Under the pieces are notes generated by a model that did not search any database, was not told the origin of the DNA, and worked only from the letters and a program-made list of their open reading frames with translations. Below, piece by piece: positions 1,349 to 63,010 of a stretch of DNA of 64,000 nucleotides; position 1 is the stretch's first letter, and each line of letters opens with the position of its first letter. The position numbers and the translations under genes were made by a program. Source of the stretch: Sulfurimonas sp. (lineage in GTDB: Bacteria > Campylobacterota > Campylobacteria > Campylobacterales > Sulfurimonadaceae); contig NZ_JAHYJB010000006.1 of the NCBI RefSeq assembly GCF_019429335.1, positions 1-64,000 on the forward strand. The letters run 5' to 3'.

Positions 1349-1366
1349 TTATCTCCTAGTGTTACG

Positions 1367-1450
1367 CATTAAAACGAACTCGTCCGTTTTAATGGCAGGG
1401 ACAGATGTCCCCTGCAACCCGCTAAAGCTACGAAAAACTTTGTTTTTCGA
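1367..1450. repeat. composite hairpin intergenic repeat, copy A
   Basis: Three consecutive inverted repeats: ATTAAAACG/CGTTTTAAT (about 1368-1392), GCAGGGACA/TGTCCC-C-TGC (about 1395-1415), and CGAAAAAC/GTTTTTCG (about 1431-1449). The same three, in the same order and with similar linkers, recur at 62889-63006. The first stem differs between copies by a compensating T-A to C-G change. This is therefore a dispersed structured repeat, not two unrelated terminators. Confidence 0.75.
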
Positions 1451-1498
1451 GAACTACAAGGCATTTTACGCACTTTTATGAAAAGTGAGTAAGGTCAG

Positions 1499-1703
1499 TT
1501 ATCTCTTAAATATCTTTATAACAAGCAACACAACAGCGCCTATAACCAAACCTATGACTAAATCATTGATTATTGCAGGAACTCCCTCTATAAAATTGTG
1601 GTGAAAAAAGGCTGTTTTTTTGCGTGGCAACTTTGCTTGCAACTGCTACATCATCTGAGAGCATTGCTATATCGTCAAGCAGTAAAAAAATTCCTGATGT
1701 CAT
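1499..1703 (-). pseudogene. decayed DUF808 family membrane protein gene
   Basis: Read on the minus strand from ATG at 1703, the first 30 or so codons give the typical DUF808 N-terminus (LLLDDIAMLSDDVAVASKVA). The frame then jumps, and from about 1615 a different frame gives a C-terminal membrane tail (NDLVIGLVIGAVVLLVIKI) ending in TAA at 1499-1501. DUF808 proteins are about 300 aa; here roughly 30 N-terminal and 37 C-terminal codons remain, so most of the gene has been deleted. The remnant explains most of the gap between the cytochrome gene and the MFS gene. Confidence 0.7.
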
Positions 1704-6017: not shown

Positions 6018-6039
6018 ATAAGCCATGTGTTATTTCGTC

Positions 6040-6053
6040 TCGCCATTAGGCGA
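6040..6053 (+). repeat. small hairpin in the rplI-hslV spacer
   Basis: TCGCC-ATTA-GGCGA is a perfect 5-bp stem with a 4-nt loop shortly after the rplI stop codon. No T-run follows, so it is a weak terminator candidate. It may be a processing signal or part of an inserted repeat together with the larger hairpin at 6071-6099. Confidence 0.45.
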
Positions 6054-6070
6054 AGCTTTAGAGAGGGGAA

Positions 6071-6103
6071 TTTTGCAAAGAATTCACTTCTTTGCAAAAG
6101 GAG
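6071..6103 (+). promoter_or_regulatory. long hairpin abutting the hslV ribosome binding site
   Basis: TTTTGCAAAGAA (6071-6082) and TTCTTTGCAAAA (6088-6099) form a perfect 12-bp stem with a 5-nt loop. The 3' arm overlaps by two bases the Shine-Dalgarno AAGGAG at 6098-6103, which serves the TTG start of hslV at 6110. Folding of the mRNA could limit ribosome access. The hairpin is seen directly; a regulatory role is inferred. Confidence 0.55.
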
Positions 6104-62810: not shown

Positions 62811-63010
62811 CACGGTGGGTGCCCCAAATCTTGAGTAGCAAGATTTGGCACTTCCACTGCAAAATCGTTCGTTTCATTTGATGTTAATCACTAAAACGAA
62901 CGTGTCCGTTTTAGTGGCAGGGACAAATTGTCCCTTGCAACCCCCTTATAATGGAGTATGCCATTGGTTAGCATACCTAAAAGCTATGAAAAACAGGTTT
63001 TTCGAGATTT
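62811..63010. repeat. composite hairpin intergenic repeat, copy B
   Basis: The shared block runs about 62889-63006: ACTAAAACG/CGTTTTAGT, GCA-GGGACAA/TTGTCCC-T-TGC, then AAAGCTATGAAAAAC/GTTTTTC, as in copy A at 1367-1450. Copy B has an extra 38-nt piece carrying the hairpin GTATGC/GCATAC. A further 10-bp hairpin CCAAATCTTG/CAAGATTTGG (62824-62848) lies before it. This fills the gap between the DUF294 and symporter genes. Confidence 0.75.

Follow-up and report, generated by a model that had tools for sequence, protein, structure and literature searches.

A probable MITE of Sulfurimonas with insertion-sequence-type ends and a covarying three-hairpin core

Close to both ends of a 64,000-nucleotide stretch of Sulfurimonas sp. 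DNA (the window, i.e. the whole stretch that was analysed), three hairpins follow one another in the same order, which raises the question of what kind of repeat they belong to, by what it is moved and whether its fold is under selection. A first-pass annotation had noticed these two copies, here called A and B, and had proposed a REP- or MITE-type element. Our analysis indicates that the repeat is very probably a MITE, with 14-bp ends that IS4/IS701-type DDE transposases would recognise in trans and a three-hairpin core that would be selected for its fold. It would thus be a short mobile DNA that has no gene of its own and is probably moved by a transposase encoded elsewhere. The features in the window are:

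1349..1355, no strand: left target-site duplication of copy A, TTATCTC, exact and with the 7 bp that are the rule in the family
1356..1498, plus strand: copy A, complete element of 143 bp
1356..1369, plus strand: left terminal inverted repeat of copy A, CTAGTGTTACGCAT (consensus CTGATGTTACGCAC)
1367..1394, plus strand: stem 1 of copy A, with the conserved A.C mismatch below the apex
1397..1413, plus strand: stem 2 of copy A (CAGGGACAGATGTCCCC...), near-invariant
1414..1430, plus strand: single-stranded linker of copy A (consensus ACAACCCCCTAAAGCTAC, one substitution here)
1431..1453, plus strand: stem 3 of copy A (CGAAAAACTTTGTTTTTCG), then GAGA
1485..1498, minus strand: right terminal inverted repeat of copy A (GTGAGTAAGGTCAG; consensus GTGCGTAAGGTCAG)
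1499..1505, no strand: right target-site duplication of copy A, TTATCTC
6026..6103, minus strand: possible related short form, consisting of a 13-bp hairpin, CTCTCTAAAGCT, a 6-bp hairpin and GA; weak match to the core model (E=0.015)
62878..63007, plus strand: copy B, with a degraded left end (TTGATGTTAATCAC), stems 1-3 and an unrecognisable right end
62942..62974, plus strand: nested hairpin insert in copy B (GGAGTATGCCATTGGTTAGCATACC), between CCCCCT and AAAGC

Both copies were present as first annotated, including the paired change in stem 1 (CATTAAAACGAAC/GTCCGTTTTAATG in copy A, CACTAAAACGAAC/GTCCGTTTTAGTG in copy B; T-A in A, C-G in B), the one-base bulge of stem 2, which occurs in A and B but is absent from the majority of the family, and a third stem that is the same in both. 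The extents had to be widened: positions 1367-1450 are the core of copy A, but the whole element spans 1356-1498, and copy B begins at about 62878. Copy B is longer than copy A owing to the extra hairpin insert of about 33 nt (about 62942-62974). The two copies score 98 and 58 bits, respectively, with a covariance model of the core, and neither contains an ORF of at least 80 aa. Just ahead of copy B (62815-62857) lies an imperfect inverted repeat of 19 bp, distinct from the element, and a sequence similar to it is present in the same gap of genome G151, which has no element there.

The repeat is not confined to the window. When the whole 2.06-Mb draft genome, of which the window is C2:1-64000, was searched by BLASTN with a 113-nt query from copy A, 24 genomic places were detected at E<1e-9, plus weaker partial ones, so that a chance likeness can be dismissed. 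The genome-wide covariance-model search that the first-pass annotation had proposed also returned further copies: with a model built from 72 copies, 28 of 30 own-genome loci scored, which amounts to about 28 three-hairpin cores in this genome rather than a pair, or a set of unrelated terminators. The element is accordingly short, dispersed and multi-copy, with a full length of 115-190 bp and size classes of about 116, 142 and at least 160 bp. Across the order Campylobacterales, the core was found in at least 66 of 299 genomes and at least 23 of the 81 genera sampled, these counts being lower bounds because at most 13 candidates were scored per genome. The 20-nt motif TCCCTACAACCCCCTAAAGC was also run against 84,980 species genomes; the contigs among the matches listed were all Campylobacterota by title, and were assigned to Sulfurimonas, Sulfuricurvum, Sulfurovum, Sulfurospirillum and others named to family or order only. 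Many of the hosts are sulfur-oxidising relatives of Campylobacter. Viral contigs gave no match to the core.

The boundaries of the element are those of a transposable unit. Its consensus starts with CTGATGTTACGCAC and finishes with GTGCGTAAGGTCAG, 14-bp terminal inverted repeats that have CTGAYSTTACGCAC at both ends, and with up to two mismatches this pattern gave 48 matches compared with 11 for the reversed control. Both terminal repeats were found in 11 of 26 own-genome copies and in 23 of 57 other copies obtained by BLAST or with the model, compared with 1 of 1,441 random positions. Among the 44 elements in which both ends were recognised, 13 had identical 7-bp flanks and 24 had flanks that agreed to within one mismatch, whereas swapping partners gave expected numbers of 0.35 and 2.58; lengths of 3-6 bp showed nothing like this excess, and matches at 8-9 bp were few. 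Neither end was recognisable in 19 of the 57 copies from other genomes, in which the core was still kept. This may mean that the core does not depend on transposition, or simply that the ends have decayed.

Empty sites, which the first-pass annotation had suggested looking for in relatives, were found for a copy between two genes named gpmI and mraY from their flanking translations. The occupied site of this genome reads TTATTTA, 143 bp, TTACTTTA, ATTAAGG, and the site is uninterrupted in three relatives (G151, G021 and G076), reading ...TTATTTAATTAAGG... in G151 and G021; the boundary was taken from the sequences, as the MAFFT gap sits slightly off. A second polymorphic site is that of copy B, which lies downstream of an actP-like gene, between it and the next gene. 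Among different species, this gap holds an element in the same orientation in G140 and G154, one in the opposite orientation in G067 and G138, and none in the closest relatives G079 and G004, whose neighbouring protein shows 96-97% identity. For copy A no clean empty site was found in relatives because the neighbouring gene has decayed here and is intact in them; its remnant occupies positions 1500-1718 of the window, 3' of copy A, where G136, G151 and G021 have the intact gene.

That the hairpins are ordinary transcription terminators, alike by chance, is hardly credible given these empty sites and target duplications. They are indeed intergenic and often downstream of genes, but they occur in both orientations, their stems lack a following T-run, and the likeness extends over 100 nt in sequence plus structure.

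The same duplications bear on the REP-type half of the original proposal, in which a RAYT (a Y1 HUH transposase) would move the repeat and the minus strand of stem 2 would form its GTAG-tagged palindrome. Target duplications are not expected from HUH/RAYT movement, and here they measure 7 bp. The tag itself is frequent, as the minus-strand sequence of stem 2 is in many cases GTAG-GGAC...GTCC and GTAG stands at the stem foot in about 74% of copies, but it is absent in about a quarter. A 261-aa RAYT-like protein is encoded in the genome, and GTAG repeats are reported for Sulfurovum NBC37-1 (PMC3733652), whose listed palindromes stem 2 could overlap. However, no core was located with the covariance model around 30 Y1-transposase loci, to a distance of about 1.5 kb, a check with an unvalidated regular expression being negative as well, and a Y1_Tnp match is absent in several genomes with many copies. 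Movement by a RAYT is therefore very unlikely, and the MITE-type half is the one that held, through the inverted repeats, the 7-bp duplications, the empty sites, the lack of an ORF and the existence of insertion sequences (ISs) with the same ends.

The mover of the MITE is likely an IS4/IS701-type DDE transposase. Pairs of terminal repeats within the own genome did not yield an autonomous IS; it was traced via contig breaks in G087 and then by a transposase-fragment search. The recurrent contig breaks in G087 fall at CTGACCTTACGCACCAAGG... and CTGACCTTACGCACCTTTTAATTTC..., which are both ends of one multi-copy IS with the termini CTGACCTTACGCACC. The outer parts of this IS were translated to give the transposase termini, and a query was made by placing X between two terminal fragments that had been observed. 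In G095 and G082 it detected ISs of 1.1-1.2 kb, whose ends include CTGACCTTACGGAC and CTGACCTTACACAC; relatives carry ISs ending CTGACCTTACGCAC. The same query led to an intact IS of 1,203 bp in the own genome (about C33:593-1795), ending CTGATGTTACG and bounded by perfect 22-bp terminal repeats (CTGATGTTACGATAATCTAAAT). Its transposase of about 355 aa has a YREK signature at residue 280 of the open frame, matches Pfam DDE_Tnp_1 and scores 264.8 bits against the NCBIfam IS701_2 cut-off of 250. The own IS matches the MITE over only 11 bp of the left end and, taken together with the IS ends of the relatives, the MITE therefore has one end resembling each IS type. Overall, the terminal 11-14 bp of IS701-type ISs (NCBIfam NF049921; ISAba11-labelled homologues) are identical to the MITE ends, whereas these ISs differ in being 1.1-1.2 kb long and transposase-encoding, and the MITE core was not found in them.

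Copies of the partner IS are flanked by near-7-bp repeats. IS701 elements make 4-bp duplications and ISAba11 5-bp ones; the 4 bp typical of IS701 were not seen for the MITE, whose duplication is 7 bp. Matches to IS701_2 do not follow MITE copy number, and none was obtained in several copy-rich genomes (G004, G005 and G021), so that the partner there has been lost, is missing from the assemblies or is a different one. Other short elements of 248-266 bp, 93 bp and 43 bp have the same IS-type ends, the 248-266 bp one being another MITE with the same CTGACCTTACGCAC ends and an unrelated interior (L237-L240; genomes G118, G007, G091 and G001). A weak match at L268 was dropped, as this locus encodes an apparent tyrosine recombinase.

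In the mechanism that we propose, IS4/IS701-type DDE transposases acting in trans would recognise the 14-bp MITE ends, excise or copy the element, make a staggered cut of 7 bp in A+T-rich intergenic DNA and insert the element there. The interior would consist of three hairpins with conserved single-stranded linkers between them and not of IS remnants, and this module would be selected for its fold, either as RNA in read-through transcripts or as single-stranded or cruciform DNA. Both the present-day movement of the MITE by these transposases and the action of the core fold as RNA or DNA structure are putative.

Selection for structure had initially been deduced from the paired change in stem 1, which is weak by itself; the larger set of copies strongly confirms covariation. 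In a sequence-only alignment, 88.4% of cells pair and two-sided changes occur in 18 of 25 pairs; none of 500 shuffles reached any of the measures (these counts are not probabilities, as the sequences are related), and sliding the partners by one column reduced pairing to 43-50%. A model-fitted alignment, which leans towards structure, comprised 89 matches from own-genome, BLAST and model hits, none of them motif-retrieved, and gave 94.6% pairing cells and two-sided changes in 22 of 25 pairs. A bias towards the linker affects the motif-retrieved loci but not the BLAST loci, in which the same pattern is seen. Hardly any variation occurs in stem 2 or in the linker ACAACCCCCTAAAGCTAC, identity in the linkers is about 90% or higher, and stem 3 is followed by GAGA. 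In stem 1, the A.C mismatch below the apex was kept in 69 of 86 copies while neighbouring pairs switch between C-G, U-A and G-C. The simplest reading of this covariation is selection on the fold.

Template switching inside each hairpin, known as quasipalindrome correction, might also produce paired changes with no selection involved. Such correction yields them automatically in perfect palindromes, and stems 1 and 3 are palindromic; yet it should remove the A.C mismatch, which is retained in 80% of copies while adjacent pairs vary, and it leaves the near-invariant linkers unexplained. We regard this explanation as improbable.

A further reading, compatible with the MITE explanation and not exclusive of it, is that the core is itself a functional structured RNA (or ssDNA) family for which the terminal repeats are only one vehicle of spread. 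Perfect linkers and compensated stems persist in copies without terminal repeats and in tandem arrays, and the breadth across genera and the conserved A.C mismatch point in the same direction. Against this stand the patchy presence of the core, the lack of orientation preference relative to genes and the Rfam search, in which no match exceeded the gathering threshold and nothing credible appeared at E<=10. This reading is possible but remains doubtful. Regarding orientation, with the element taken as plus, the flanking genes were ++ in 54 cases, -- in 48, convergent in 45 and divergent in 20, and only 14 of 181 copies overlapped a predicted ORF (ORFs called greedily by the analyst), the others being intergenic. 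As intergenic copies occur in both orientations to genes, a fixed cis-regulatory role is unlikely, and the absence of a preferred strand argues against a leader-type cis-regulator. The rarer divergent setting suggests that promoters are avoided.

The hairpins also vary as modules. Stem 3 exists in two types, GAAAAAC/GTTTTTC and CCCCTATC/GATAGGGG. Tiny inserts of the form C-X-GTTTCTTTAG, 14 to about 40 nt long with AAAA on both sides, occur in A-tracts or arms of stems 1 and 3 (L019, L023, L024, L027, L029, L163, L194, L200 and L233). In 2.1 Mb that were mostly sequence around elements, and hence a biased sample, 18 of 19 such sites lay inside elements by inspection and 14 by a scripted core test; in the same biased sample, the GGAGTATGCCATTGGTTAGCATACC insert between CCCCCT and AAAGC was seen in six cores and one related element. 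A second repeat type has the stem-1 apex, CTAAAGCT and stem 3 in common with the element and a different middle stem; at L372:2828, L363:1445, L410:1436, L013:2642 and others it appears as stem-1 apex, GCTACGCTAGCCGCTGTGGCACTAAAGCT, stem and AGAA. Tandem arrays of the core with no obvious terminal repeats were seen at L158:4034-4300, L352 and L357, and integron attC sites were dropped as a candidate since the copies stand one by one at scattered places and are flanked by target duplications. It is conceivable, and offered here tentatively, that a wider Campylobacterota superfamily of structured RNA/ssDNA modules is defined by the three-hairpin core, together with the A.C mismatch and the invariant CTAAAGCTAC...GAGA frame. 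Such modules would be under selection for a function, at the level of the host or of the element, that goes beyond transposition, and they would swap hairpins modularly and spread on IS701-type ends.

The closest analogues of the MITE are bcr1 and the ERIC/NEMIS class. bcr1 is about 155 bp long and has a predicted RNA structure. In the Bacillus cereus group it is dispersed, MITE-like and lineage-specific, has mobile-element traits and is often found in transcribed UTRs or operon gaps (PMC3446304). The Sulfurimonas repeat resembles it in being a dispersed MITE-like repeat with mobile-element characteristics, but differs in sequence and host, in its ends of known ISs and 7-bp duplication, and in a core that extends across many genera. 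ERIC, YPAL, NEMIS and RUP are described in PMC3733652 as non-coding MITEs of 70-300 bp with 15-30 bp terminal repeats that adjoin genes; no sequence in common with them was noted, and the Sulfurimonas repeat adds the covarying three-hairpin module with its fixed mismatch. With GTAG-type REPs it shares intergenic palindromes and a stem 2 that often begins GTAG on the minus strand, and it differs in having terminal repeats and target duplications and no RAYT linkage. The kind of element, a structured bacterial MITE, is thus already known, while the family itself is apparently undescribed: the literature searched yielded neither a MITE from Campylobacterota nor a description of this repeat.

Taken together, a mobile repeat with a defined terminal repeat, a target duplication and a candidate transposase occurs across genera of this group, and its internal structure is kept far more strictly than end-dependent transposition seems to demand. 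With this many copies, empty sites and shared insertion sites, one can test whether selection acts on the interior of MITEs as RNA or DNA structure, a question that applies equally to bcr1, ERIC and NEMIS.
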